Positions 13,005 to 61,982 of a stretch of 64,000 nt of DNA are shown in pieces. The position numbers and the translations under genes were made by a program. The DNA is from Stenotrophomonas maltophilia (GTDB lineage Bacteria > Pseudomonadota > Gammaproteobacteria > Xanthomonadales > Xanthomonadaceae): contig NZ_CP154630.1 of assembly GCF_039555535.1 (NCBI RefSeq), positions 1,439,001 to 1,503,000 on the forward strand, in the 5' to 3' direction. Every line of letters begins with the position of its first letter. Position 1 is the first letter of the stretch. Below the pieces are notes generated by a model, which was given only the letters and a program-made list of their open reading frames with translations, searched no databases and had not been told where the DNA came from.

Positions 13005-13081
13005 CAGCACCTCTGAAGAAAGCGGGCGGAGGGGATTGCGTTGCAATCAGCATCTGATCACAGACCCGTGCGGGAAGCGAT

Positions 13082-13576
13082 TTAATTCCCTCCGCCCCCT
13101 TTTTGGATCGCGGCTTCGATGGTGGCGATGTCGATCTTCTTCATCGGCATCATCGCGTTGAAGGCGCGCTTGGCCAGTGCCTTGTCCTTGCTGGTCACTG
13201 CTTCGATCAGCATGCGCGGGCTGATCTGCCAGGAGATGCCCCAACGGTCCTTGCACCAGCCGCATTGGCTCTCCTGGCCCCCGTTGCCGACGATCGCGTT
13301 CCACAGGCGGTCGGTCTCGGCCTGATCCTCGGTCTGGATCTGGAAGGAGAACGCTTCGCTGTGCTTGAACGCGCTGCCGCCGTTGAGGCCGACGCAGGGA
13401 ACGCCGCAGACAGTGAATTCGACGGTCAGAACGTTGCCTTCCTTGCCGTCGGGGTAGTCGCCCGGCGCGTGATGCACGGCGGTGACCGCGCTGTCGGGCA
13501 GGAGGCTGGCATAGAAGGTGGCGGCCTCGAGCGCGCCATTGTCGTACCAGACACAGATCGTGTTCTTGTGTGCCAT
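13082..13576 (-). CDS. VOC superfamily protein (PhnB/3-demethylubiquinone methyltransferase-like fold)
   Basis: A 164-residue protein with two glyoxalase-like beta-alpha-beta-beta-beta modules. It opens NTICVWYDNGALEAATFYAS and carries GLNGGSAFKHSEAFSFQI and CGWCKDRWGISWQISP, marks of the PhnB-like VOC branch, where WGxxWQ is the typical second-module motif. It then ends in a helix rich in Lys (AMMPMKKIDIATIEAAIQK), also typical. Members of this branch have no agreed reaction. It is a single gene, upstream of and on the same strand as the FAD oxidoreductase, with 77 bases between. Confidence 0.88.
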   Translation of the reverse strand: MAHKNTICVWYDNGALEAATFYASLLPDSAVTAVHHAPGDYPDGKEGNVLTVEFTVCGVPCVGLNGGSAFKHSEAFSFQIQTEDQAETDRLWNAIVGNGGQESQCGWCKDRWGISWQISPRMLIEAVTSKDKALAKRAFNAMMPMKKIDIATIEAAIQKGGGGN

Positions 13577-48097: not shown

Positions 48098-48868
48098 ATG
48101 CGTTACGCGCTTGGCGTCGAGTACGACGGCAGCGATTTCAGGGGCTGGCAGAACCTGGGCGAGGGCGGTCCCAGCGTGCAGGCCAGCCTTGAGCAGGCCC
48201 TGTCGTCGGTGGCCGATGCGCCGCTGCAGGTGGTCTGCGCCGGCCGCACCGATGCCGGCGTGCATGGCCAGTGCCAGGTCGTGCATTTCGATACCGACGT
48301 GGTGCGCGATCCGCGCGCCTGGATGCTGGGCACCACCACCCGCCTGCCGCGCTCGATCGCGGTGCGCTGGTGCGTGCCGGTGGCCGATGACTTCCACGCC
48401 CGCTTCTCGGCACGCGCACGCCGCTACCGCTACCGCCTGCTCAACCGCGAGGTGCGGCCAGCGCTGGACCGGCAGACCCTCAGCTGGGAGCGCCGGGCGC
48501 TGGACGAGACCCTGATGCACGCCGCCGGCCAGGCCCTGATCGGCGAGAACGACTTCAGCGCATTCCGCTCCGTGCAATGCCAGGCGCTGCATGCGCGGCG
48601 TGAGCTGCAGTCGCTGCAGGTCAGCCGCCAGGGCGAGGTGATTGAAGTGGCCGTGCAGGGCAATGCATTCCTTCATCACATGGTCCGCAATATCGTCGGA
48701 TCGTTGATCCTGGTGGGCAGCGGCGAAAAACCGGTGGACTGGATCGCCGAACTGCTGGCCGGGCGCGATCGCACCGTAGCCGGTCCCACCGCACCGCCGC
48801 AGGGCCTGGTGTTCCTTGGGCCCCTGTACCCCGACAACTGGCATCTGCCCGCCGAGGTCACGCTATGA
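48098..48868 (+). CDS. truA: tRNA pseudouridine(38-40) synthase TruA
   Basis: Makes pseudouridine at positions 38-40 of the anticodon arm. The 256-residue product has [10 protein letters not shown] at the N-terminus, the catalytic Asp52 in [19 protein letters not shown], and the second-half marks [11 protein letters not shown] and [18 protein letters not shown] 48098 is preceded by GAGGTAGCAC, a good ribosome site. It overlaps trpF by four bases. Confidence 0.97.
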
Positions 48869-49521
48869 GCCGCTCCTACTACCGCACGCGCATCAAGTTC
48901 TGTGGCATGACCCGTGCAGGCGATGTCCGCCTGGCCGGTGAGCTGGGCGTGGACGCAGTGGGTTTCATCTTTGCCCGCGAGAGCAGCCGCCGGGTTGCTC
49001 CTGCCGAAGCACGCGCGATGCGCCAGGCGATCGCGCCGATGGTCGATGTGGTGGCCCTGTTCCGCAACAACAGCAAGGAAGAGGTGCGCGAGGTGCTGCG
49101 CACGGTGCGGCCGACCCTGCTGCAGTTCCATGGCGAGGAAGACGAGAGCTTCTGCCGCAGCTTCAACATGCCCTACCTGAAGGCGATTGCCATGGGGGGC
49201 CGGGAAGAGGTCAATGCGCGCACGTTGCAGCTGCGTTACCCCAGCGCGGCGGGGTTCCTGTTCGACAGCCACGCCCCTGGTGGCGGTGGCGGTACCGGCG
49301 TGGCCTTCGATTGGGGCCGTATCCCGACCGGCCTGCATCGGCCGTTCCTGCTGGCCGGTGGCCTGAACCCGGAAAACGTCTACGATGCCGTGCTGGCTAC
49401 CCTGCCGTGGGGCGTGGACGTGTCCAGCGGCATCGAACTGGAGCCGGGCATCAAGGACGGCTACAAGATGCGTACCTTCGTCGAGGAAGTGCGCCGCGCG
49501 GACTGCACGGTCCTGGAGTGA
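48865..49521 (+). CDS. trpF: Phosphoribosylanthranilate isomerase
   Basis: Third step of tryptophan synthesis, an Amadori rearrangement. The 218-residue TIM barrel has [12 protein letters not shown] with the catalytic Cys, [17 protein letters not shown], and the phosphate-binding [15 protein letters not shown] with [15 protein letters not shown] at the end (catalytic Asp in strand 6, [10 protein letters not shown]). Coupled to truA by a four-base overlap, as in pseudomonads, where accD follows directly; here trpBA and accD are more than 11 kb away. Confidence 0.96.
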
Positions 49522-49689: not shown

Positions 49690-50361
49690 ATGCAGGAGTT
49701 CCTCAGCGTTGTGTTCGGTTTTCCGACCCTGCCGTACAGCATCGTGCTGGCGGTATCGCTGATCTATTGGGGGCTTGCCGCATTTGGCCTGGTCGACGAT
49801 GGCTTCGGCGATCTTGGCGCCGATGGCGCCCTGGACGGCGGCAACGATCTCAGCGGCCTGTCGGCCCTGCTGCAGCGCTTCGGCCTGGGTGGAGTGCCGG
49901 TCATGGTCGTGGTCACGCTGCTGGGCTTCTTCGGCTGGGCGCTGACCTATTTCATCCATCTTTTCGTGCTGCTGCCGTTGCCGGACCTGCTGCGCTGGAC
50001 GATCGGCGCGGTCGTGGCCGTGCTGGCTCCCCTGCCTGCGGTGCCGGTCACCGCGCTTCTGCTGCACCCCATCCGTCGGTTCCTGCTGCGCCTGCGGCCG
50101 GTGGCCCAGGCCTCGTTGCTGGGGCGCATCGGTGTGGTCGCCTCGCCGAAAGTGGATGCGCGCAGCGGCCACGCCACCTTCGATGACGGTGGCGCCGGGC
50201 TGGTGCTGCAGGTGCGCAGCGACATTGAACTGCAGCGTGGCGAGCGCATCGTGCTGGTCGAGCACGTGGCCGCACAACACCATTACCGGGTGGTCCGCGC
50301 CGATGCGGTCGCCCTCGACTTCCAGGACAACCTGCTTCCGGGCAACAAGGAGAATCACTGA
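49690..50361 (+). CDS. OB-fold membrane protein (YqiJ/NfeD-like), flotillin partner
   Basis: A 223-residue inner-membrane protein. The first helix is about residues 15-32 (YSIVLAVSLIYWGLAAFGL), then an acidic loop (DDGFGDLGADGALDGGND), then helices at about 60-90 and 95-120, and a C-terminal OB-fold domain from about residue 145 (GRIGVVASPKVDARSGHATF ... GERIVLVEHVAAQHHYRVV). This is the layout of YqiJ proteins, whose OB domain works with the flotillin YqiK encoded next to it. ATG 49690 is preceded by AGGAAGGCA. The stop overlaps the flotillin start by one base (TGATG), which implies coupled translation. Confidence 0.87.
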   Translation: MQEFLSVVFGFPTLPYSIVLAVSLIYWGLAAFGLVDDGFGDLGADGALDGGNDLSGLSALLQRFGLGGVPVMVVVTLLGFFGWALTYFIHLFVLLPLPDLLRWTIGAVVAVLAPLPAVPVTALLLHPIRRFLLRLRPVAQASLLGRIGVVASPKVDARSGHATFDDGGAGLVLQVRSDIELQRGERIVLVEHVAAQHHYRVVRADAVALDFQDNLLPGNKENH

Positions 50362-52379
50362 TGACGTTGGCAACCATGGCCCCCTTCCTGATCGGCGTCG
50401 CCGTCCTGCTGGTCGGGCTGCTCGGCCTGGCCGGCCTGTTCAAGGCCTTCTACCGCAAGGTCGACCAGGGCGTGGCCCTGATCGTCAACGACATGAGCTC
50501 CACGCCCAAGGTGCACTTCACCGGTGCGCTGATCATCCCGGTGCTGTACCGCGCCGAGCTGATGCGGATCAGCCTGATCACCCTGCAGATCGACCGCCGC
50601 GGCAAGGAAGGCCTGATCTGCCGCGACAACATGCGTGCCGATATCGCCGTGGCCTTCTACCTGCGGGTCAATGAAACCCAGGCCGACGTGCTGCGCGTGG
50701 CCAAGGCCATCGGCGCCGATCGTGCCTCGGACAAGCACGCCGTCGACGAGCTGTTCAACGCCAAGTTCTCCGAAGCGCTGAAGACGGTGGGCAAGAAGTT
50801 CGACTTCACCGAGCTGTTCGAGAAGCGCCAGGAGTTCCGCGACGAGATCATCGCGGTCATCGGCAACGATCTGAACGGCTATGTGCTGGAGGACGTGGCG
50901 ATCGACTATCTGGAACAGACTCCGAAATCGCTGCTGGACCAGTTCAACATCCTCGACGCGCAGGGCATCCGCAAGATCACCGAGCTGACCGCCGCGCAGA
51001 ACGTGGTGACCAACGAGCTGGAGCAGAACGAGAAGCTCGCCATCACCAAGAAGAACGTGGAAGCGCGTGAGGCGCTGCTGGCGCTGGAACGCCAGCAGGC
51101 CGAAGCGGAAGCCCGTCAGAAGCGCGAGATCGAGACCATCCGCGCGCGCGAGGAAGCCGAGACCGCCAAGGTGCAGGAAGAACAGCGCCAGCTGTCCGAG
51201 AACGCCCGCATCGAAGCGCAGCAGCTGATCGAGATCCGCGACCAGAACCGCCTGCGCGAAGTGGAAGTGGCCGAGCAGAACCGCCAGCGTGCGGTGGCCA
51301 TCGAAGCCGAGCGCGTCGAGCGCGCACGCCAGCTGGAGCAGGTCACTACCGACCGTGAAGTGCAGCTGCAGGGCGTGGAACGTGACAAGGTGGTCGAGCA
51401 GGGCAAGATGGACGTGGCCAACATCACCCGCGAACGCATCTCCATCGACAAGACGGTGGCCCAGGAAGAAGAGCGCATCAAGGAAGTGCGCGAGGTCTCC
51501 GAGGCGGACCGTCAGAAGCAGGTGCTGATCCTGGAAGCCGAGGCCAAGGCGCAGGAATCGCTGGTGCGCGAAGTGAAGGAAGCACAGGCGCGCGAAACCG
51601 CGTCGAAGCACCGTGCCGTTGAACTGACCACGCTGGCCCAGGCCGAGCACGAAGCGGCCGGCAAGCAGGCTGAAGCCAAGCGCCTGCTGGCCGACGCGCT
51701 GCGGGCCGAACAGGCGGCGCCGGGCCTGGCCGAGGCGCAGGTACGCGAAGCGTCCGCGCTGGCCATCGAGAAGGTCGGTATTGCCGAGGCCCGCGTGATC
51801 GAGGCCAAGGCCGAAGCCAGCCTGAAGCAGGGCAGCAACGAGGCCCGGGTGCTGGCCGAGACACTGCAGGCGCAGGCCCAGGGCGAAGAAAAGATGGGCC
51901 TGGCGCGTGCCACCGCCACCGAATCGCTGGGCAACGCCGAAGCCGGCGTGGTGCAGAAGAAGCTGCTGGCCGAGGCCGAGGGCCTGGTGCGCAAGTTCGA
52001 GGCGATCGCTTCGCTGAGCGACCAGGCGCGCGGCCACGAAGAGTTCCGCATGATGCTGGACAACAGCCTGAAGCAGGCGCTGGCCTCGATCGAAGCCGGC
52101 AAGGAAGTCTCGCGCGAGAACGCCAGCGTCATCGCCAGCGCGCTGCGTAATGCCGACATCGACCTGGTCGGTGGCGACGGCGGCATGTTCGAGAACCTGG
52201 TCAAGGCGGTGTCGCTGGGCAAGTCGATCGAGGGTTTTGCTGGCAAGAGCCCGATCGTGCAGGAACTGATGCAGCGCTACCTGGGCGTGGCCGTGGCCGA
52301 GCCGGCACCGCGCCAGATCGCCGAGGACGCCGAAGCGGTGCCCACCGTGTCGGCCACCGTGGTCGACAGCGCCCGTTGA
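50361..52379 (+). CDS. Flotillin family protein (YqiK-like)
   Basis: A 672-residue membrane-scaffold protein. One N-terminal helix (residues 5-27, APFLIGVAVLLVGLLGLAGL) anchors it; the band-7/SPFH domain follows (about 30-220: VDQGVALIVNDMSSTPKVHF, VLYRAELMRISLITLQID); then a long coiled coil of about 350 residues rich in Glu, Ala, Arg and Gln (QEEQRQLSENARIEAQQ and similar); then a C-terminal flotillin tail with GGMFENLVKAVSLGKSIEGF. Flotillins form large rings on the membrane and gather other proteins. It is the second gene of the five-gene cluster. Confidence 0.92.
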   Translation: MTLATMAPFLIGVAVLLVGLLGLAGLFKAFYRKVDQGVALIVNDMSSTPKVHFTGALIIPVLYRAELMRISLITLQIDRRGKEGLICRDNMRADIAVAFYLRVNETQADVLRVAKAIGADRASDKHAVDELFNAKFSEALKTVGKKFDFTELFEKRQEFRDEIIAVIGNDLNGYVLEDVAIDYLEQTPKSLLDQFNILDAQGIRKITELTAAQNVVTNELEQNEKLAITKKNVEAREALLALERQQAEAEARQKREIETIRAREEAETAKVQEEQRQLSENARIEAQQLIEIRDQNRLREVEVAEQNRQRAVAIEAERVERARQLEQVTTDREVQLQGVERDKVVEQGKMDVANITRERISIDKTVAQEEERIKEVREVSEADRQKQVLILEAEAKAQESLVREVKEAQARETASKHRAVELTTLAQAEHEAAGKQAEAKRLLADALRAEQAAPGLAEAQVREASALAIEKVGIAEARVIEAKAEASLKQGSNEARVLAETLQAQAQGEEKMGLARATATESLGNAEAGVVQKKLLAEAEGLVRKFEAIASLSDQARGHEEFRMMLDNSLKQALASIEAGKEVSRENASVIASALRNADIDLVGGDGGMFENLVKAVSLGKSIEGFAGKSPIVQELMQRYLGVAVAEPAPRQIAEDAEAVPTVSATVVDSAR

Positions 52380-52463
52380 TGCATCGGGCGATGGCCACGC
52401 CGCCATCGCCCGCCCGCGCCGGCCGCAGATGCGGCCGTTCGCCCGTGAGCCGGAAGCCTGCTG

Positions 52464-55400
52464 ATGCCTGAAACCCATCCGTCCGCCGAAACCACCGCAG
52501 CGGAGGCCGGCGGCAACACCGTCGACCAGGCCGTCGCCCAGGGCGGTGCCTATGAAGTCCTGCGCCGCCGCCTGGCCGAGCAGGGCCAGCGCCTGCAGGC
52601 CCTGGCCGAAGTGCTCAACCGCCAGCGCCTGGCCGAGTTCGGCGACAGCCGGCTGGAAGTGGTCGGGCGTTTCCGCATCCGCAGCGAGAACAACTGCGTC
52701 GGCCGCGACATCGTGCAGGTGGGCCCGGACCGCCTGCTGTTCGGCTACAACGTCTTCATCGGTCTGAAAACCCAGACCCGCATCGAGGATGTGTTCGGCC
52801 TGTACCGGCTGGTGCAGGGCAGTGACGGCTACGACGTCGCTGCGCTGGAGCTGAAGGGCAGCTTCCTCGACCAGCCCGGCTTCGTGCACGACTTCAATGA
52901 GCTGTACGCCTACTACAAGCACGCGCGCCTGCTGCAGCTGATCGTGGTCGGCGACAAACTGCTGGCCTCGTTCCAGATCGGCGAGCGCAGCAGCGACGTA
53001 CGCGTGTTCCGCTGGGCGCTGTCGCGCGAAGGCGAGCTGACCTACCTCGACGCGCGCGGCGAACGCGATATCGCGCTACCGCCACCGTTCGATTTTGAAT
53101 GGACCCGGGCCACGCGTGACCTGGCGGTCAGCGGCCGCCATTCGCACCTGAACATCCTCGACACCCTGTTCGTGGAAACCACCGGCGGTGACCTCACCAT
53201 CAAGGTGGAGAACAACACCGAGACCGGGCAGGGCATCTACAGCGAACCGGTAGAGGACAGCACGCAGTCGCTGGACGATGCCCAGTTCGAGTTCGCCCGC
53301 GTCGGTTCGCTGCTGCTGTTGAAGGTGCTGCCCTATCGCGAAACCGTCTGGCGCGGGCTGATCTACAACACGATCACCGGCGACATCGTGCGCAACGATG
53401 CGATCGTGCAGGCCTGCGTGCAGCTGCCCGAAGACCACGGCGTGATCTTCCCGGGCGGCTATTACCTGCAGGGCGGCGAGCACAAGGCGTTCGACGCCTC
53501 GATGGCCGGCATGCAGTTCAAGCGCAGCATCCGCTCGCCCAACGGCGAGGACGTGCTGTACATCTTCTACGAACGCGAGGGCGGTCGCTCGGCGCTGTTC
53601 GTGTACAACACCATCCAGCGCGTGCTGCAGAACCCCGTGTTCGGCCACGGCTATGCCTTCCTGCAGGATGGACGCATGGTGTTGTTCCATGCCGAGGGCG
53701 CCGAACCGACCCGCATCCATCCGATGCAGGTGTGGCAGACGCCGTTCAGCAGCGACGAATTCGCTGCCAGCCGACCGCCCGGCAATACCTTCATGGGCCG
53801 CATCGGCAATGCCGAACTGGTGCGCGGCATCTCCAACCTGTTCAACCTGGCGCGCGAGATCGACGGCCAGCACGTGTCGGTGCAGCGCTACCAGCGCCTG
53901 GTCGCCGATACCCGCCGCCTGTTCGACACCCACCACTGGCTGGGCGACGATGCCTGCGATGGTGCCGAGGCGCTGCTGCGGCAGATCAGCGCCACCGGCG
54001 AATCGGTGCTGGACGAATACGAGAAGGTGCAGTCGATCCGCCAGCAGTCGGCGCAGGCGATGGTTGACGCCGAGGCCAGGCACAAGGCCCTGCTGGGCCG
54101 CCTGCAGCCGCAGAACTGGAACGAGGTGCAGGCCTTCGTCGAGGCGCTGAACGAAATCACCGCGCTGCGCGGGCGGCTGCTGACCATCCGCGAGCTGCGC
54201 TATATCGATACCACGCGCATCGAGGCCATGGCTGCCGAACTGGTGCAGGCCCAGGACCGCGTCGGTGCGGCAACCGGTGAATTCCTGGCCGGCGATGTCG
54301 CACTGGCACCACTGGGCAGCCGCCTGCAGGCGCTGGACGAAGCCGCCCAGCAGGCCAGCAGCGCGCGCCAGCTGGACGAGCAGCTGGACGGCATGCGCGC
54401 CATGGCCGCCGACCTGGACATGCTGTCCGAACTGATGGCCGGGCTGAAGGTGGACGATGCCACCGCGCGCACCCGCGTGGTCGAATCCATTTCCGCGCTG
54501 TACGGGCGGCTGAACCAGGCGCGCACCCGCGCCGAACAGCGCCGCCGTACCCTCGGTTCGGCCGAGGCCGTGGCGCAGTTCGCTGCCCAGTTCGCGTTGT
54601 TCTCGCAGTCCATCACCAGCGCGCTGGCGATGGCCAACGATCCGGAAAGGGCCGACGAACAGCTGTCACGCCTGCTGGTGCAGCTGGAAGAACTGGAAAG
54701 CCAGTTCGGCGAGCATGAGCAGTTCCTCGGCGACATCCTCAGCAAGCGCGAAGAACTGGTCGAGGCCTTCGAAACGCACAAGCAGGCGCTGCTGGACGAC
54801 CGCCAGCGCAAGGCGCGTTCGGTACTGGATGCTGCCAACCGCATCCTCGATGGACTGGCCAAGCGCACCGAGCGTTTCGCCACCGCCGATGAACTCAATG
54901 CGTTCTTCGCCGGCGATCCGTTGATCCTCAAGCTGCGCGAGCTGGCCGAGCGGCTGCGCACGCTGCGCGACAACGTCAAGGCCGATGACATCGAGGCGCG
55001 CCTGAAGGGCGTGCGCGACCAGGCCGTGCGCCAGCTGCGCGACCGCAGCGACCTGTACGAAGCCGGTGGCAACGTGGTCCGGCTTGGCCCGCGCCACCGC
55101 TTCAGCGTCAACACCCAGGCCCTGGACCTGACCCTGTTGCCGCGCGGCGACACGCTGGCCATCCACCTGACCGGCACTGACTTCCTGGAAACCCTGCACG
55201 ACCCGGAACTGGAGGCACTCAAGCCGTTCTGGCCGGTGACGTTGGATTCGGAATCCGATGCGATCTACCGCGGCGAATACCTGGCCGGCAGTCTGCTGCT
55301 GGCCGCACAGCAAGGCCACGATGGGCTGGACCTGGCCCAGCTGCAGCACGATGTCGCCACACCCGAAGCACTGGATCAGCGCGTTCGTGCCTTCGCTGCG

Positions 55401-57851
55401 CCGCGCTATCGCGAAGGCTACGAGCGCGGCATCCACGACCACGACGCCGCGCTGATCCTGCGCGCGCTGCTGCCCTTGCAGCGGTCTGCCGGCACGCTGC
55501 GTCACGCCCCGCAGGTGCGTGCGCTGGCCCTGCTGTTCTGGGCGGCGCAGCAGCGCGAAGAAGCGGTACTGCAATGGCCCAGCCGCCAGGCCGGAGCGGA
55601 AACCATCGCTCGCCTGTTCGGCTCCGACGAAGGGCGTGACGCCCTGCGCGCGGAAATGGCTGCTGCGCTGAGTGCGTTCTCGCAGTCGCAGTCATTGCCC
55701 TTCGACGAAGAAGCCGCCGATGCGGCGGCCGCCTATCTGGGCGAAGAACTGGTCAACGGCGAACCCGTGTTCAGCACCAGCAAGCATGCCCAGGCCCTGC
55801 TGGAGGCCCTGGCCCATCAGCTGGACCAGGCCGGGCAGCGCGAAGCACTGGAGCGCGCCCTGCAGCGTACGCAGGATCCGCTGGCCGCGCGCTGGGCACT
55901 GGCCGGGCAATGGCTGCGCGCGCTGGCCGGCCTGCCTGCACAGGCCGCGCATGCCGGTTATGCGGACGAGGCCGCTGCACTGCTGTTGGTGCAGCGCCAG
56001 CTGCGCACGCGGGCCAGCGATGCGCCGCTGCGCGTGGACGTACCGGGCCTGCTTGGCGAACACCCGCGCATCCACAACGGCTCGCTGTCGTTGTCGCTGG
56101 ATGACTTCCTGGCGCGCCTGCAGCATCATCTCAAGCGCTTTGTGCCGGATTTCCACGCCTACCAGACCGTGCGCCAGGGCATCATCAACCGCGAGCGGCA
56201 GACTCTGCGCCTGTCCGAATTCAAGGCGCGGCCGCTGTCTTCGTTCGTCCGCAACAAGCTGATCAACGACGTCTACCTGGGCGTGATCGGCGACAACCTG
56301 GCCAAGCAGATGGGCACGGTCGGCGAGAACAAGCGCAGCGACCTGATGGGCCTGCTGATGATGATCTCGCCCCCGGGTTACGGCAAAACCACGCTGATGG
56401 AATACGTGGCGCACCGGCTGGGCCTGGTCTTCATGAAGATCAACGGCCCGGCGCTGGGTCACGAGGTGCGTTCGCTGGACCCGGCACAGGCGCCCGATGC
56501 CACCTCGCGGCAGGAACTGGAAAAGCTCAACCTGGCGCTGGAGATGGGCAACAACACCATGCTGTATGTCGACGACATCCAGCACACCCATCCCGAGTTC
56601 CTGCAGAAGTTCATTTCGCTGTGCGACGGCACGCGCCGCATCGAAGGCGTGTGGCGTGGCCGCACCCGCACCTACGACATGCGTGGCAAGAAGTTCTGCG
56701 TGGTCATGGCCGGCAACCCGTACACCGAGTCCGGTGAGGTGTTCAAGATTCCGGACATGCTGGCCAACCGCGCCGACATCTACAACCTCGGCGATGTGCT
56801 GGGAGGCATGGAAGCGGCGTTCACCCTCAGCTACATCGAGAACAGCCTGACCTCCAACCCGGTACTGGCGCCGCTGGCCACGCGTGACATGGCCGACCTG
56901 TACGTGCTGGTCGATCGCGCGATGGGCAAGGACGTATCCACCAATGGCCTCAGCCACGCCTACAGCAGTGCCGAGATCAACGAGATCACCGCCACCCTGC
57001 AGCGCATGCTGCGCGTTCGCGACGTGGTCTACCGGGTCAACCAGCAGTACATCGCCAGTGCCGCGCAGGACGATCGTTACCGTACCGAGCCGCCGTTCCG
57101 GCTGCAGGGCAGCTACCGCAACATGAACAAGCTGGCGGAGAAGATCTCGCCGGTGATGAACGAGGATGAGCTGCAGCAGCTGATCTCCGACCACTACCTG
57201 GGCGAGGCGCAGCTGCTGACCACCGGCGCCGAGGAGAACCTGCTGAAGCTGGCCGAACTGCGCGGCGTGCTGGATGAGGTGCAGTCGCAGCGCTGGGCCC
57301 AGATCAAGCGCGATTTCCTGCGCAACAAGGCCATGGGCGCCGACGACAGCGATGTCGGTGGACGCGTGGTCGCGCAGTTGGCGGACATCGCCAGCGCGTT
57401 GCAGTTGCCGCCGCCCGCGCCGGAAGCGATCGCCGTTGCGGACCCGGCGCCGTGGCCGGCGCTGCTGGAGGCCCTGCATCGCCTTTCAGAGGCGCGTCCC
57501 GCCGCTGCGCCGCCGCCGGTCGCGGCAGCCCCCAGCGTGCCGGCCACGGCCCTGGCCGAAGACCTCCAGGCGGGCCTGGCGCCACTGGTGGAGCTGCTGG
57601 CGGCATCGCAGGCGCAGCAGGTGCAGGTGTCGCAGACCCTGGCCGCGTTCGCCGGCTGGGCGCGACAGCAGGTCGAGCGGGGCACGCCGAGCGCTGTGGT
57701 GGCGCAGCGCGCGCGCGTGCGCCGCGCCGCGACGCCGGAGGAGCGGGCGCTGGATGAGGCGCTGATGCGCCACTTCTACGGCGAGTCATTGCCACCGGAA
57801 GACGGCGATGGCATGCCGGCATCCACGCCGCAGCCGCCGCCGCTGCCGTGA
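52464..57851 (+). CDS. Giant AAA+ protein, 'DNA repair ATPase' (DUF3686-type)
   Basis: 1795 residues. About 1-430 is a beta-rich repeat-like region opening FRIRSENNCVGRDIVQVGP, the DUF3686 mark; about 500-900 is mostly coiled coil; a mixed region follows; the AAA+ module is at about 1290-1560. Its Walker A is SPPGYGKT (1302-1309) and Walker B is MLYVDDIQ (from 1366), with the sensor-1 strand in CVVMAGNPYTESGE and a conserved ANRADIYNLGDVLGG. The last 130 residues are Ala/Pro-rich with a short helix. No helicase or nuclease motif is visible, so the database name 'DNA repair' is not supported by the sequence itself. No signal or membrane helix: cytoplasmic. It overlaps the next gene by four bases. 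Confidence 0.88.
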   Translation: MPETHPSAETTAAEAGGNTVDQAVAQGGAYEVLRRRLAEQGQRLQALAEVLNRQRLAEFGDSRLEVVGRFRIRSENNCVGRDIVQVGPDRLLFGYNVFIGLKTQTRIEDVFGLYRLVQGSDGYDVAALELKGSFLDQPGFVHDFNELYAYYKHARLLQLIVVGDKLLASFQIGERSSDVRVFRWALSREGELTYLDARGERDIALPPPFDFEWTRATRDLAVSGRHSHLNILDTLFVETTGGDLTIKVENNTETGQGIYSEPVEDSTQSLDDAQFEFARVGSLLLLKVLPYRETVWRGLIYNTITGDIVRNDAIVQACVQLPEDHGVIFPGGYYLQGGEHKAFDASMAGMQFKRSIRSPNGEDVLYIFYEREGGRSALFVYNTIQRVLQNPVFGHGYAFLQDGRMVLFHAEGAEPTRIHPMQVWQTPFSSDEFAASRPPGNTFMGRIGNAELVRGISNLFNLAREIDGQHVSVQRYQRLVADTRRLFDTHHWLGDDACDGAEALLRQISATGESVLDEYEKVQSIRQQSAQAMVDAEARHKALLGRLQPQNWNEVQAFVEALNEITALRGRLLTIRELRYIDTTRIEAMAAELVQAQDRVGAATGEFLAGDVALAPLGSRLQALDEAAQQASSARQLDEQLDGMRAMAADLDMLSELMAGLKVDDATARTRVVESISALYGRLNQARTRAEQRRRTLGSAEAVAQFAAQFALFSQSITSALAMANDPERADEQLSRLLVQLEELESQFGEHEQFLGDILSKREELVEAFETHKQALLDDRQRKARSVLDAANRILDGLAKRTERFATADELNAFFAGDPLILKLRELAERLRTLRDNVKADDIEARLKGVRDQAVRQLRDRSDLYEAGGNVVRLGPRHRFSVNTQALDLTLLPRGDTLAIHLTGTDFLETLHDPELEALKPFWPVTLDSESDAIYRGEYLAGSLLLAAQQGHDGLDLAQLQHDVATPEALDQRVRAFAAPRYREGYERGIHDHDAALILRALLPLQRSAGTLRHAPQVRALALLFWAAQQREEAVLQWPSRQAGAETIARLFGSDEGRDALRAEMAAALSAFSQSQSLPFDEEAADAAAAYLGEELVNGEPVFSTSKHAQALLEALAHQLDQAGQREALERALQRTQDPLAARWALAGQWLRALAGLPAQAAHAGYADEAAALLLVQRQLRTRASDAPLRVDVPGLLGEHPRIHNGSLSLSLDDFLARLQHHLKRFVPDFHAYQTVRQGIINRERQTLRLSEFKARPLSSFVRNKLINDVYLGVIGDNLAKQMGTVGENKRSDLMGLLMMISPPGYGKTTLMEYVAHRLGLVFMKINGPALGHEVRSLDPAQAPDATSRQELEKLNLALEMGNNTMLYVDDIQHTHPEFLQKFISLCDGTRRIEGVWRGRTRTYDMRGKKFCVVMAGNPYTESGEVFKIPDMLANRADIYNLGDVLGGMEAAFTLSYIENSLTSNPVLAPLATRDMADLYVLVDRAMGKDVSTNGLSHAYSSAEINEITATLQRMLRVRDVVYRVNQQYIASAAQDDRYRTEPPFRLQGSYRNMNKLAEKISPVMNEDELQQLISDHYLGEAQLLTTGAEENLLKLAELRGVLDEVQSQRWAQIKRDFLRNKAMGADDSDVGGRVVAQLADIASALQLPPPAPEAIAVADPAPWPALLEALHRLSEARPAAAPPPVAAAPSVPATALAEDLQAGLAPLVELLAASQAQQVQVSQTLAAFAGWARQQVERGTPSAVVAQRARVRRAATPEERALDEALMRHFYGESLPPEDGDGMPASTPQPPPLP

Positions 57852-58555
57852 CCACGCGCGTGCCACTGCCGCCACCGATGCTGCCGGATACGGTCGATGT
57901 CGCTGCGCTGGCCGACTATGGTGCGCCGTTGCTGCAGGCGCTGGCGCGGCGCGAAACGCCGTTGCCACCGGATGCGGGCGAGCGCCTGGTGGCTGCGCTT
58001 GCGCGCATCGCGCTGGCCTTGCAGGCCGGCAACCCGACGCAGATCCGGCAGCAGGAAGGCTGGTGGGGGCGACTGCTGGGGCGCGATGTCGCTCGCGAAG
58101 CAGAAGGGCACGCGCTGCAGTCTCAGCTGGGCGTACTGGCCCTGCAGGCGCGTGAGCAGGCTCAGCACCTGCAGCAGCACATGCAGCTGCGGGCCATGGC
58201 GATCGTTGAGCATTCCGCCGCAGCCGCGGCGCTGGACGGCTGGGCCGAACTGGCTGCGTCGCGGCTGACGACGCTGGATAGCGCCGGTCAGGCCGCGCTG
58301 TCGCATCGGCTGGACCATCTTCGCCGGCTGGCCTCGCTGCACCGCCTGGAAGCCGGCCAATCGCAGCTGCTGCAGGACCAGGACAACATGCTGCTGCAAC
58401 GCTTCGCGCGCATCCATGACGTGCTGCTGCCGGCCTGGCGGCAGGCTGTACTGGCGAGCCAGGCCGCTGCGGGCGCTGCGTTGGCTGGCAAGGCTGCCAC
58501 GTTGCACGCACAGATCGATGACGAGGTGGCCGCGGCTCAGGCTAGACTGCCTTGA
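57848..58555 (+). CDS. Unrecognised helical protein between the AAA+ and TelA genes
   Basis: A 235-residue protein that I do not recognise. It starts at GTG 57848 overlapping the AAA+ stop. After a Pro-rich lead (PLPPPMLPD) it is almost all helix, rich in Ala, Leu, Gln and Arg. A distinctive patch is QEGWWGRLLGRDVAREAEG at about residues 69-87, and the rest reads as coiled coil (LQAREQAQHLQQHMQLRAM). No signal, membrane helix or Cys. The aromatic W-W-G-R-L-L-G-R patch followed by helices suggests an adaptor that pairs with TelA or the AAA+ protein, but this is inference from position only. Confidence 0.75.
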   Translation: MTTRVPLPPPMLPDTVDVAALADYGAPLLQALARRETPLPPDAGERLVAALARIALALQAGNPTQIRQQEGWWGRLLGRDVAREAEGHALQSQLGVLALQAREQAQHLQQHMQLRAMAIVEHSAAAAALDGWAELAASRLTTLDSAGQAALSHRLDHLRRLASLHRLEAGQSQLLQDQDNMLLQRFARIHDVLLPAWRQAVLASQAAAGAALAGKAATLHAQIDDEVAAAQARLP

Positions 58556-58599
58556 GCCGGCCGCCGCTGCCGCTTACCCAACTGCAAGGAGACTGCCCG

Positions 58600-59709
58600 A
58601 TGACCCAGGACAGCCAGACCCCCGGTGCCCTCGTACCCGGCACGACCACCGCCACTGCGCTCGATGAAGGTGCGCTGCAGGCGCTGGGACTGGTACGCGA
58701 GGATCTGCCGCGCATCGCCGAGATCCGTCTGGAACTGGACGATCTGCGCCCGGGCAACCTGCAGGTGTTCGGCCGCGAGGCGGCCACGCGCACCGCCGCG
58801 TTCTCCAGCCAGCTGCTGGACCAGGTCCGCAATCGTGACCTGGATGCCAGTGGCGAGAAGCTGGGCGAGGTGGTGCGCATCGCGCGCAGCCTGAAGCTGG
58901 ACGGCTTCGCCCAGCGTTCGAAGGTGCCGGTGATAGGTGGTCTGATCGACCGCATACGCGCCTCCAAGGGCGAGCTGGTGCAGAAGTTCAGCGACACCAA
59001 CGCGCAGATCGAACAGCTGCTGGCCGACGTCGGCGTGCAGCAGGCGTTGATGGGCAAGCGTGTGGGGGAGTTCGACCGCATGCACGATATCGTCCGCGAA
59101 GAACGTCGTGCGCTCGGCCTGTATGCGGCAGCGGGCAAGCAGCGGCTGGCCGAACTGCAGGCCGAACAGCTGGCCGGGCAGGGCAGTGAGGACCCCCAGC
59201 AGCGCATCCGCCAGGGCGAGATCGACAATGCGATCCGGTTGATCGAGAAGCGCGTGTCCGACCTGCTGCTGATGCAGCACGCCGCCGACCAGTCGCTGCC
59301 GATGATCCGCCTGATCCAGGCCAACGCGCTGCAGCTGATCGAGAAGTTCAACACCGTCCGCGACATCACCATTCCGTCGTGGAAGCGCCAGTTCGCCATC
59401 CAGCTCTCGCTGGGCGAACAGAAGGCTGCGGTCGAACTGTCCACGGCCATCGATGACGCCACCAACGAATTGATGCGTCGCAATGCCGACCTGCTTCGCC
59501 AGGCCTCGGTGGATACCGCGCGCAGCAACCAGCGCGGCGTGATCGACGTGGCCACGCTGCGCCATGTGCACGACCAGCTGATCGCCACGGTGGAAGAAGT
59601 GCGCAGCATCCACCGCGAAGGGATGCAGCAGCGGCAGCAGGCCGAAGTCGAGCTGTCGCGCCTGCGCGAAGACCTGCAGCAGCGCCTGGCCACACCGACC
59701 GCCAGCTGA
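58600..59709 (+). CDS. TelA/KlaA family 'toxic anion resistance' protein
   Basis: A 369-residue cytoplasmic helical protein. Family marks are VPVIGGLIDRIRASKGELVQ, with the V-P-x-I-G-x-L-x-D segment, LMGKRVGEFDRMHD, and in the second half RLIQANALQLIEKFNTV with IPSWKRQFAIQLSLGEQKAA, the most conserved TelA stretch. TelA was named for tellurite resistance on a plasmid; chromosomal members are tied to envelope stress, and how they work is unknown. ATG 58600 has a strong ribosome site (AAGGAGA). It is the last gene of the cluster and ends in a perfect inverted repeat. Confidence 0.93.
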   Translation: MTQDSQTPGALVPGTTTATALDEGALQALGLVREDLPRIAEIRLELDDLRPGNLQVFGREAATRTAAFSSQLLDQVRNRDLDASGEKLGEVVRIARSLKLDGFAQRSKVPVIGGLIDRIRASKGELVQKFSDTNAQIEQLLADVGVQQALMGKRVGEFDRMHDIVREERRALGLYAAAGKQRLAELQAEQLAGQGSEDPQQRIRQGEIDNAIRLIEKRVSDLLLMQHAADQSLPMIRLIQANALQLIEKFNTVRDITIPSWKRQFAIQLSLGEQKAAVELSTAIDDATNELMRRNADLLRQASVDTARSNQRGVIDVATLRHVHDQLIATVEEVRSIHREGMQQRQQAEVELSRLREDLQQRLATPTAS

Positions 59710-59779
59710 AAAAAGGGGACGGAGGGAATTAAGTCGTTTGTGCCACTTGCGACTTAATTCCCTCCGTCCCCTTTTTTTT
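59709..59779. terminator. Bidirectional terminator made of a perfect 28-bp inverted repeat
   Basis: Left arm from 59709 (AAAAAAGGGGACGGAGGG...), right arm ending in CCCTCCGTCCCCTTTTTT, with a 13-base loop. Both strands give a strong stem followed by a T run, so it can end TelA and the convergent LysR gene. It looks like a mobile repeat rather than an ordinary terminator because the arms are perfect over 28 bases. Confidence 0.8.
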
Positions 59780-59780
59780 G

Positions 59781-60668
59781 TCAGCGGAGTTGCTGGCCCA
59801 GCCAGTCGGCGAGCGCATCCACGCGCGCATCAGGTGGTCCGTCCGGTCGCGCCAGCACCCAGAAACCACCGGTGGCGGCAAACCCCCACGGCGCGAACAG
59901 TCGCCCGGCGGCCAGATCCTCGGCCACCAGTGGCTCGGGTGCGATCGCCGGGCCCAGCCCGGCCACCGCTGCCTCCAGCAGGTAGTACAGATGCTCGAAG
60001 GCCGTCCCCAGCTGCAGCTTCGCGGGGTCCAGAGCGTGCGCCTGCGCCCACGCCGGCCACGCCTGCGGCCGCGAGCTGGTGTGCAGCAGCGTCTCCTGAA
60101 GCAGCGCTGCGGGCGGTACATGCCGCAGGCGCTGCGCGGCCGGATGCGAGGGGGCCACCACCACGCCGACCCGTTCCGGGGCCAGCTCACGCACCTGCCA
60201 GCCGCGCGGCCACGGCCCCTGCGCCAGCAGCAATACCGCATCCAGTGCCGCCTGTGCCTCGGTGAAGCTGCCATCCAGCGCTGACCACTGCAGGCGCACG
60301 CCGGGCAGGGCGGCCTGCAGCGCAGGCAGGCGCGGGATCATCCAGCGCGCCAGCACGCTGCCGCTGCAGCCCAGTACCAGCGCCGGGGCCGCCGCAGGCC
60401 GCCGCAGTTCGCGCACGCAGTCTTCGATGCCGCCGAAGGCCTCGCTGCACGCTGCCTGCAGCCGCGTGCCCGCAGCGGTCAGGCGCAGGCCGCGACCGGC
60501 ACGCTGGAACAGCGCCAGGCCGAGATGGTCTTCCAGCAGCTTCAGCTGCCGACTGACCGCACCATGGGTGACGTGCAGGTCCTGCGCGGCGCGACCAACG
60601 CCGCCGAGACGGGCCGTGGCCTCGAACGCGCGCAGTGCATTGAGTGGAGGCAGCAGGGAATGGATCAT
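59781..60668 (-). CDS. LysR family transcriptional regulator divergent from trpB (TrpI/GcvA-like)
   Basis: A 295-residue regulator. Residues 1-65 form the winged helix-turn-helix (LPPLNALRAFEATARLGGVG ... AVSRQLKLLEDHLG), and the rest is the effector domain (LVLGCSGSVLARWMIPRLP onward). The opening with LNALRAFEA is that of the GcvA/AmpR/TrpI branch. In Pseudomonas TrpI is divergent from trpBA and activates it with indoleglycerol phosphate; the same arrangement here, with 96 bases between the start codons, supports that role, but this is inference. Effector domain residues are not decisive. Confidence 0.88.
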   Translation of the reverse strand: MIHSLLPPLNALRAFEATARLGGVGRAAQDLHVTHGAVSRQLKLLEDHLGLALFQRAGRGLRLTAAGTRLQAACSEAFGGIEDCVRELRRPAAAPALVLGCSGSVLARWMIPRLPALQAALPGVRLQWSALDGSFTEAQAALDAVLLLAQGPWPRGWQVRELAPERVGVVVAPSHPAAQRLRHVPPAALLQETLLHTSSRPQAWPAWAQAHALDPAKLQLGTAFEHLYYLLEAAVAGLGPAIAPEPLVAEDLAAGRLFAPWGFAATGGFWVLARPDGPPDARVDALADWLGQQLR

Positions 60669-60764: not shown

Positions 60765-61982
60765 ATGTCTGCCTCCCCCATTGCCGACTATCACGCTTTC
60801 CCGGATGCCCAGGGCCACTTCGGCCGCTACGGCGGCAGTTTCGTTGCCGAAACCCTGGTCGGCCCGCTGCAGGAACTGGCCCAGGCCTATGACCAGGCGC
60901 GCCAGGATCCCGCATTCCAGCTGGCCTACGACCGCGACCTGGCCCATTACGTGGGCCGGCCAAGCCCGATCTATCACGCCCAGCGCCTGAGCGATCACGT
61001 CGGCGGCGCGCAGATCCTGCTCAAGCGCGAGGACCTGAACCACACCGGCGCGCACAAGATCAACAACACCATCGGCCAGGCCCTGCTGGCGGCGCGGATG
61101 GGCAAGAAGCGCATCATTGCCGAGACCGGCGCCGGCCAGCATGGCGTGGCCAGCGCCACGGTCGCAGCGCGGCTGGGCCTGGAATGCGTGGTGTACATGG
61201 GCGCCACCGACATCGAGCGGCAGAAGATCAACGTCTACCGCATGAAGCTGCTGGGCGCGACGGTGGTGCCGGTCACCTCCGGCTCGGCCACCCTGAAGGA
61301 CGCGCTCAACGAAGCCATGCGCGACTGGGTGACCAACGTGCAGGACACGTTCTACATCATCGGCACCGTGGCCGGCCCGGATCCGTATCCGCGCATGGTG
61401 CGTGACTTCAATGCCATCGTCGGTCGTGAAGCGCGCGAGCAGATGCTGGCCGAGTACGGCCGCCTGCCGGATGCGATCACCGCCTGCGTGGGCGGCGGCA
61501 GCAACGCGATCGGCCTGTTCCATGCCTTCCTCAACGACCGCCAGGTCGAGATCGTCGGCGCTGAAGCGGCAGGTGATGGCATCAGCACCGGCCGTCACGC
61601 CGCCTCGATCGCTGCCGGTCGCCCGGGCGTGCTGCACGGCAACCGCACCTATGTGCTGTGCGATGACGACGGCCAGATCATCGAGACCCATTCGGTGTCG
61701 GCAGGCCTGGACTATCCGGGCGTCGGCCCGGAGCACGCGTTCCTGGCCGATACCGGTCGCGCACGCTATCTCGGCATCACTGACGAGGAAGCGCTGCAGG
61801 CATTCCATCTGCTGGCCCACACCGAAGGCATCCTGCCGGCGCTGGAGTCCAGCCACGCGCTGGCGCAGGCGATCAAGCTGGCGCGTGAGCGTCCGCACGA
61901 CCAGATCGTTCTCTGCAATCTGTCCGGCCGTGGTGACAAGGACGTGCATACGATTGCCGCGCGCGAAGGGCTGGTACTGTGA
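60765..61982 (+). CDS. trpB: Tryptophan synthase beta chain
   Basis: Joins indole and serine to tryptophan with PLP. The 405-residue product opens with [20 protein letters not shown], has the PLP Lys98 in [22 protein letters not shown] as the conserved loop, GGGSNAIG for the phosphate, and LSGRGDKD near the end. The pattern is the main (TrpB1) type. Its stop overlaps the start of a lipoprotein gene by four bases, which separates it from trpA. Confidence 0.97.

Follow-up and report, generated by a model that had tools for sequence, protein, structure and literature searches.

An operon that joins a CesT/Tir-type protein, the membrane-repair protein PspA, a flotillin, an AAA+ ATPase and YqiJ has already been published, together with shorter forms that lack PspA (PMC11237479); the available part of that paper describes an N-terminal beta-propeller in the AAA+ protein and suggests that, where the operon is abbreviated, PspA might be encoded elsewhere in the genome. 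A tie between an SPFH protein and PspA has also been reported, since the SPFH protein YdjI is required for PspA localisation in Bacillus subtilis (PMC8581546, abstract). TelA-family proteins appear in a different literature, which we cite from the portions available: KlaA, KlaB and KlaC of plasmid RP4 (FiwB) jointly inhibit IncW plasmid transfer, and the KlaA and KlaB profiles are homologous (PMC5696584); in Listeria, disruption of lmo1967 (TelA) causes 4-fold higher nisin sensitivity, and TelA and psp genes are among the bacteriocin-induced genes (PMC12791056, the former citing Collins 2010), the mechanism of Listeria TelA being not known according to that 2026 paper. Here, we analyse a compact five-gene block in a 64,000-nucleotide stretch of the Stenotrophomonas maltophilia chromosome (contig NZ_CP154630.1, positions 1,439,001 to 1,503,000; hereafter, the window). 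Comparison of its genes and of their relatives suggests that this block is probably a variant of the PspA-flotillin-AAA+ membrane-maintenance operon, in which a klaA-klaB pair took over the place of YjfI (the CesT/Tir-type protein) and PspA.

Genes 1 to 3 correspond to the operon core. The gene 1 product has hydrophobic stretches at about residues 7-35, 57-89 and 91-125 by hydropathy, and its sole family match was to YqiJ_N (PF21001, below cut-off); it is 33-37% identical to the product of the gene that precedes the flotillin-like gene in four plasmid loci (L001-L004), and an in-house YqiJ hidden Markov model, seeded with gene 1 itself and two relatives, matches it at E 3e-72. Gene 2, which a preliminary description made from the DNA letters had called a flotillin, encodes a protein with a single N-terminal hydrophobic stretch (residues 9-27). 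This assignment is borne out not by Pfam (no family match at E 0.1; the NCBIfam FloT match, E 0.0011, is far below cut-off) but by 51% identity to an annotated 'SPFH domain-containing' protein (pQBR103) and 47% to an annotated 'flotillin family protein'. The AAA+ protein of 1795 residues and the TelA homologue announced in the same description were likewise recovered, the former with an AAA_5 match (E 2.4e-7) beside its DUF3686 match (PF12458, E 5.6e-192), the latter through PF05816 (E 1.7e-70). In the AAA+ protein GYGKT starts at residue 1305, YVDDIQ at 1368, AGNPYT at 1416 and NRAD at 1435, under motif names that we presume to apply; the P-loop is intact, and GYGKT, YxDDIQ, GNPYT and NRAD are invariant across 8 aligned sequences, of which the window's is one. 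A phage search with gene 3 returned zero matches.

Judged by alignment, genes 4 and 5 are a klaA-klaB-like pair as found on (mostly IncP) plasmids, because gene 4 aligns to KlaA, gene 5 to KlaB, and plasmid KlaA precedes KlaB. Gene 5 scores 238.2 bits with PF05816 (curated cut-off 30) and is 44-49% identical to plasmid KlaB/TelA among the best 30 of 794 plasmid records; 11 of 12 records were opened (H3 was left out), and the klaA-klaB order was seen in all six plasmid regions fetched (IncP by typing in five), with KlaA proteins of 256-267 residues. Gene 4 had been regarded as unrecognised, and it does become recognisable through plasmid KlaA: hhalign aligned it to six plasmid KlaA sequences with a probability of 98.8 (E 1.2e-16), blastp to RP4-type KlaA at E 1.7e-10, and RP4-type KlaA itself scores above the PF05816 cut-off. 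Direct routes from gene 4 to TelA gave little: no PF05816 match for gene 4 itself, an initial match to the TelA PHROG only (PHROG 5890, E 7.5e-5), a weak early hhalign against TelA (probability 7.9) and, in a Pfam scan of ten gene 4 relatives, none at the TelA cut-off and two below it. Run over 13,390 reading frames, a TelA model built without gene 4 sequences ranked six gene-4-like frames (two of them of one sequence) right after 33 TelA frames, most gene-4-like frames not being reached. The KlaA identity of gene 4 and the KlaB type of gene 5 are new here. The pair is followed by a convergent LysR gene, not by klaC, and an RP4-type KlaC query, for which a positive control is lacking, found nothing in the window's genome (G000).

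A Stenotrophomonas 'toxic anion resistance protein' of 357 residues (P0189) has PF05816 and matches gene 4 over 61% of the gene 4 length; it is possibly a fused or frameshifted klaA-klaB. A Lysobacter locus carries a second KlaA-like frame upstream of YjfI (L160:3428-4255, the same as L031:4524-5351), which by far outscores the frame behind its own AAA+ gene in a model of window-type gene 4.

We then asked how the block is composed in other genomes. We classified 148 loci, comprising 7 plasmid loci (L001-L007), 80 genome-contig loci (L016-L095, the best 80 of 541), 60 loci from our genome set (L126-L185) and the window; L008-L015 and L096-L125 stand outside this classification, L199-L212 were read separately, and 53 of the 56 other DUF3686-positive family genomes were fetched (G339, G371 and G421 were left out). 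A flotillin-like gene was present in 142/148 loci and a YqiJ-like gene in 139/148, and the six and nine loci that lack them are all cut by a contig end upstream, within about 400 bases. Two true exceptions occur among ten separately read AAA+ loci (L199-L208): L204 (genome G713) has neither gene in about 9 kb of upstream DNA, and L202 lacks the YqiJ-like gene. The trio of YqiJ-like, flotillin-like and AAA+ genes recurs across Pseudomonadota, and Deinococcota, Bacteroidota and Actinomycetota have it too; gene neighbourhood points to these three as the core of the module. The preliminary description had named the lack of a conserved neighbourhood in other genera as what would speak against its grouping of the five genes; such a neighbourhood was found.

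What accompanies the core varies, PspA being the usual addition: 77 loci have PspA without TelA, 21 have both, 9 have TelA without PspA and 41 have neither (some of these being cut by contig ends), so that the two are not strictly mutually exclusive. Among the separately read loci, L200-L202 have neither, and L203-L208 lack TelA, four of them having PspA. TelA was found in 30/148 loci, 29 in Xanthomonadaceae and one in Vibrio (1/77 other named loci), and a KlaA-like gene accompanies it in all 29 Xanthomonadaceae loci. TelA and the small protein, which the preliminary description proposed as cytoplasmic partners, are thus not generic partners of this operon. Across 247 family genomes, TelA was above cut-off in 27, all of them among the 57 genomes with DUF3686 (hypergeometric 1.7e-20 on the assumption, untrue here, that the genomes are independent); a 28th match (G441) is below cut-off, in a genome without DUF3686 that was not fetched. 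In 23 of the 27 TelA lies beside the AAA+ gene, and the four copies elsewhere (G345, G418, G383, G335) were rejected as the operon type, being of a different subfamily, in two cases next to what we take to be a VWA-type protein. The TelA of L209-L212 is of a different subfamily, which our operon TelA model missed; in L210 and L211 it stands beside what we take to be a solute-binding/VWA-like protein.

Within the Xanthomonadaceae sampled, the TelA pair maps to one AAA+ clade. In a FastTree tree of 85 loci (80 different, with at least five near-duplicates, including L031/L160 among the TelA-bearing ones), the Xanthomonad TelA loci fall in one clade (support 100), which includes a Deinococcus row that has a long branch and no TelA. 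This clade comprises groups with both PspA and TelA, some with and some without a phospholipase-D-like (PLD-like) gene, as well as 8 loci that have TelA only, which group together (support 99) and to which the window belongs. Most simply, the klaA-klaB pair would have been gained once in Xanthomonadaceae, and the window's branch has lost the PLD-like gene along with YjfI and PspA, a history that is well supported at the level of sequence. The block of L003, on a plasmid of Deinococcus actinosclerus, encodes a flotillin-like protein 71% identical to the window's and has no TelA or PspA; its place in the Xanthomonad TelA clade is possibly a transfer.

TelA appears to have been recruited elsewhere too. 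Both Vibrionaceae loci seen (Vibrio, and Photobacterium L199) have TelA at the operon, and this TelA is about 30% identical to that of the window and falls together with YaaN-like proteins (91/81, on a branch without a star). A single clade of Xanthomonad and Vibrionaceae operon TelA was rejected (log-likelihood (lnL) 84.4 lower; approximately unbiased (AU) test, p-AU 2.2e-48), long branches calling for caution; the two Vibrionaceae operons carry a different TelA type, by what would be a second recruitment. On plasmid pFER4 of Paracoccus ferrooxidans (L220), TelA, DUF2927, SPFH and zinc-ribbon genes lie in a row, with no DUF3686 AAA+ annotated within the 9 kb shown. From the Vibrionaceae operon type and this Paracoccus row, an association of TelA with SPFH genes seems to recur.

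No PspA/YjfI match was present in window positions 40001-64000, and PF04012 (PspA) had no match in the window's genome nor in two further TelA-only genomes (G440, G368). In these genomes PspA is not found elsewhere by sequence search, unlike what was suggested for abbreviated operons (PMC11237479, in the part available). PspA is retained in 20/22 fetched TelA-bearing family loci, and it has changed in these: identity to a Pseudomonas homologue is 29.5-38.4% in the 20 TelA-bearing loci, partly over only part of the length, vs 50.6-70.2% in 26 TelA-less family loci. Proteins were also compared pairwise at 65-70% AAA+ identity, with 24 of the 26 TelA-less loci (two had a short AAA+ frame). In this band PspA identity was 37.8% with TelA (125 pairs) vs 58.1% without (94 pairs), and the corresponding values were 54.7 vs 66.7 for YjfI, 70.6 vs 80.3 for flotillin and 50.8 vs 44.8 for YqiJ. 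Several partners thus appear to evolve faster in the TelA clade, PspA standing out mainly in the deeper comparisons. Loss of the N-terminal PspA helix in TelA-bearing loci, an idea based on several Pfam matches that start at profile position 24-28, was rejected, the N-terminal segment being kept in 15 such PspA aligned; the change is one of general divergence, plus a missing C-terminal part in one subclade.

On the favoured reading of the block as an operon variant with klaA-klaB at the YjfI/PspA place, the products of genes 1 and 2 would form a membrane platform, on which the long-helix KlaA and TelA proteins might gather upon inner-membrane damage, by analogy with PspA. The AAA+ protein would then spend ATP pulling on the KlaA/TelA assembly or recycling it, much as Vps4 does on ESCRT-III, and the result would be a membrane barrier kept under envelope-active agents, of which tellurite tolerance would be one side. 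A wider proposal, tentative and in our judgement rather more apt to fail than to hold, is that KlaA and KlaB (TelA) are stand-ins for PspA, assembling on the flotillin platform at the damaged membrane and recycled by the DUF3686 AAA+ protein, and that on two or more occasions TelA came to replace or accompany PspA. If true, the plasmid tellurite 'resistance', the IncW fertility inhibition and the nisin tolerance in Listeria would be facets of one membrane-guarding activity. TelA/KlaB is widespread, and the operon with its history suggests for it a specific role, at the PspA place of a flotillin/AAA+ membrane module; it is also a case of plasmid-type genes incorporated into a chromosomal operon, where relatives living today still show how the older effector diverged and was lost.

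Several observations weigh against this interpretation. The PspA gap narrows in close pairs (66.5 vs 76.1 at 80-85% AAA+ identity, 76.6 vs 79.1 at 85-90%), flotillin and YjfI have also diverged in the TelA clade (from about 79 to 61% and from 61 to 50%), and PspA diverged in a single evolutionary event, so that pair counts are not independent tests. PspA is absent also from 11 own-genus genomes without the block; because of this, its absence is a genus trait and does not prove compensation. Since PspA is still encoded in nearly all the fetched TelA-bearing family loci, TelA may be an addition to PspA and not a substitute, and because five Xanthomonad loci, one of which runs into a contig end, show neither protein, the core may function without either. 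Fold comparisons of TelA and gene 4 (Foldseek, VIA-align) gave no significant or stand-out match to PspA or ESCRT-III: ClyA/AhlB for TelA, and VIPP1, CHMP1B and CdvA for gene 4, were at Z values similar to those of unrelated helical rows.

The preliminary description placed five genes on one strand, and the reading frames are present there. Genes 1 and 2 overlap by 1 base and genes 3 and 4 by 4 bases, both as it had it, and 84 bases separate genes 2 and 3; the overlap of 4 bases that it gave for genes 4 and 5 requires a TTG start at 58552, and since AAGGAG precedes the ATG at 58600 the latter seems the better start, leaving a 44-base gap. The promoter candidate that it saw ahead of the block is without support, a sigma-70 scan of 47.5-62.5 kb having given 0 sites and a sigma-54 scan no enrichment over random stretches of the same loci, a promoter being still possible. 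Its strong terminator behind the block holds: the hairpin is near-perfect (-63.1 kcal/mol, z -11.2). Flanked by convergent genes, and with a 22-base motif that recurs 46 kb away at 13078-13099 (2 mismatches; 0 expected), it looks like a shared, repeated genomic element.

Coordinates of the block and of its flanking features in the window, with the evidence for each assignment
Feature	Position	Strand	Evidence
Gene 1, YqiJ-like membrane protein, 223 aa	49690..50361	+	PF21001, E 0.0027, below cut-off
Gene 2, flotillin-like (SPFH) protein, 672 aa	50361..52379	+	identity to annotated SPFH/flotillin proteins
Gene 3, giant DUF3686/DUF7902/AAA+ ATPase, 1795 aa	52464..57851	+	PF12458, E 5.6e-192
Gene 4, KlaA-like protein (short TelA-family paralogue), 235 aa, GTG start	57848..58555	+	hhalign/blastp to plasmid KlaA
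Gene 5, TelA of KlaB type, 369 aa from ATG	58600..59709	+	PF05816, E 1.7e-70
Long hairpin, bidirectional terminator candidate	59710..59779	.	between block and convergent LysR gene; folding energy
trpF-like gene, left flank and left edge of insertion site	48865..49521	+	reading frame
LysR-type regulator gene, right flank	59781..60668	-	reading frame
trpB-like gene, beyond LysR	60765-61982		reading frame

The flanking genes, which we take from their sequence to be trpF, LysR and trpB, enclose the block in the window and in five other loci (L026, L030, L038, L056, L163). The site is variable, since the spacing differs among the 11 block-less genomes of the genus: trpF and LysR are immediate neighbours in five (L191, L192, L193, L195, L198), stand about 0.5 kb apart in one (L222) and 2.8-3.0 kb apart in three (L223-L225), and in two (L226, L227) no trpF was found in about 14 kb. 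None of the six longer stretches (L222-L227) contains block genes. Presence is patchy overall, DUF3686 being found in 2/13 own-genus, 57/247 family, 8/249 phylum and 10/369 class genomes and in 0/14 controls. In L180 (genome G007) the DUF3686 gene is broken by one TGA.

The klaA-klaB pair could instead be an added tellurite or metalloid resistance that shares a transcript with the flotillin operon, the PspA divergence being coincidental or due to another change. Plasmid KlaB is indeed annotated as tellurium resistance, flotillin and YjfI diverged in the same clade, and YjfI-PspA persists beside TelA in 20 of the 22 fetched family loci. We nevertheless judge this unlikely: KlaC, which belongs to the plasmid system, is missing after the pair (nor, in a search without positive control, was it matched in G000), a second TelA type stands at the Vibrionaceae operon and the Paracoccus TelA near an SPFH gene, and the drop at 65-70% AAA+ identity is 20 points for PspA, 12 for YjfI, 10 for flotillin and none for YqiJ.

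A role of the block in defence against plasmids or phages, with the chromosomal pair using the flotillin/AAA+ platform against conjugation at the membrane, strikes us as improbable. The inhibition of IncW transfer by RP4 FiwB (PMC5696584, in the part available), the patchy presence and the variable trpF/LysR-trpB insertion site would agree with it; no match to a member gene of known anti-phage systems was obtained with PADLOC, however, beyond weak and partial ones (LmuB, E 0.0012, which we set aside as coiled-coil similarity; mad8, E 0.066), the missing KlaC match counts here also, with the same caveat, and published work ties the core to PspA and membrane stress (PMC11237479, same limit). Least credible, to the point that we give it hardly any weight, is a repair operon with gene 3 as its DNA-repair ATPase. 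Public relatives of gene 3 often bear the name 'DNA repair ATPase', and the basis of this in the protein is a short RuvB-like P-loop similarity, confined to about 45 residues around Walker A (E 0.0009-0.03), while the partner genes encode membrane or TelA-family proteins.

We therefore return to the operon variant and to how it stands beside described systems. The preliminary description knew of no account of the joint function; contrary to this, the core was already in print as an operon associated with PspA (PMC11237479, in the part available). The envelope role it proposed fits the links of the operon to PspA (PMC11237479) and of SPFH proteins to PspA (PMC8581546), as far as the available text goes, for a core that had already been described. 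The core itself is thus not new, and the new element is the klaA-klaB pair at the PspA place: the main text of PMC11237479 (supplements aside) contains neither 'tela' nor 'tellur', no description of a TelA variant of the operon was found in the openly licensed literature, where 'DUF3686' was not mentioned either, and none of the matches listed had PspA, TelA and flotillin all together.

The PspA-YdjI(SPFH)-YdjG/H set of Bacillus subtilis resembles the block in tying an SPFH protein to a PspA-family effector; its membrane partners are YdjG/H, and DUF3686 AAA+ and TelA are not named in the abstract (PMC8581546). Pseudomonas aeruginosa bacABCDEF begins with DUF2170/YjfI and PspA genes and is a six-gene transcript by reverse transcription PCR (RT-PCR; PMC10948618, in the part available). 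It fits the six-gene order of several other Pseudomonas loci, from which bacC-F would be YqiJ, flotillin, AAA+ and PLD, and it differs in being of the PspA type, TelA being absent from the Pseudomonas loci sampled. With klaABC (FiwB) of mostly IncP plasmids, whose genes presumably also go by the names kilA/telA, the window shares a KlaA-like gene directly upstream of a KlaB gene, the KlaB proteins being 44-49% identical. It differs in that its pair is chromosomal, klaC does not follow (and had no match in G000, again without positive control), and this TelA type adjoins the flotillin/AAA+ block in 23/23 family genomes that have it. The closest counterpart is the published operon (PMC11237479, as far as available), which shares with the window the flotillin-like, YqiJ-like and giant AAA+ genes on one strand, with a PLD-like gene in some relatives. 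The window's block has the flotillin, DUF3686 AAA+ and YqiJ genes and no PspA-YjfI dyad; it is hence a variant outside the PspA-bearing class, in which KlaA and KlaB/TelA stand instead of YjfI (CesT/Tir) and PspA.

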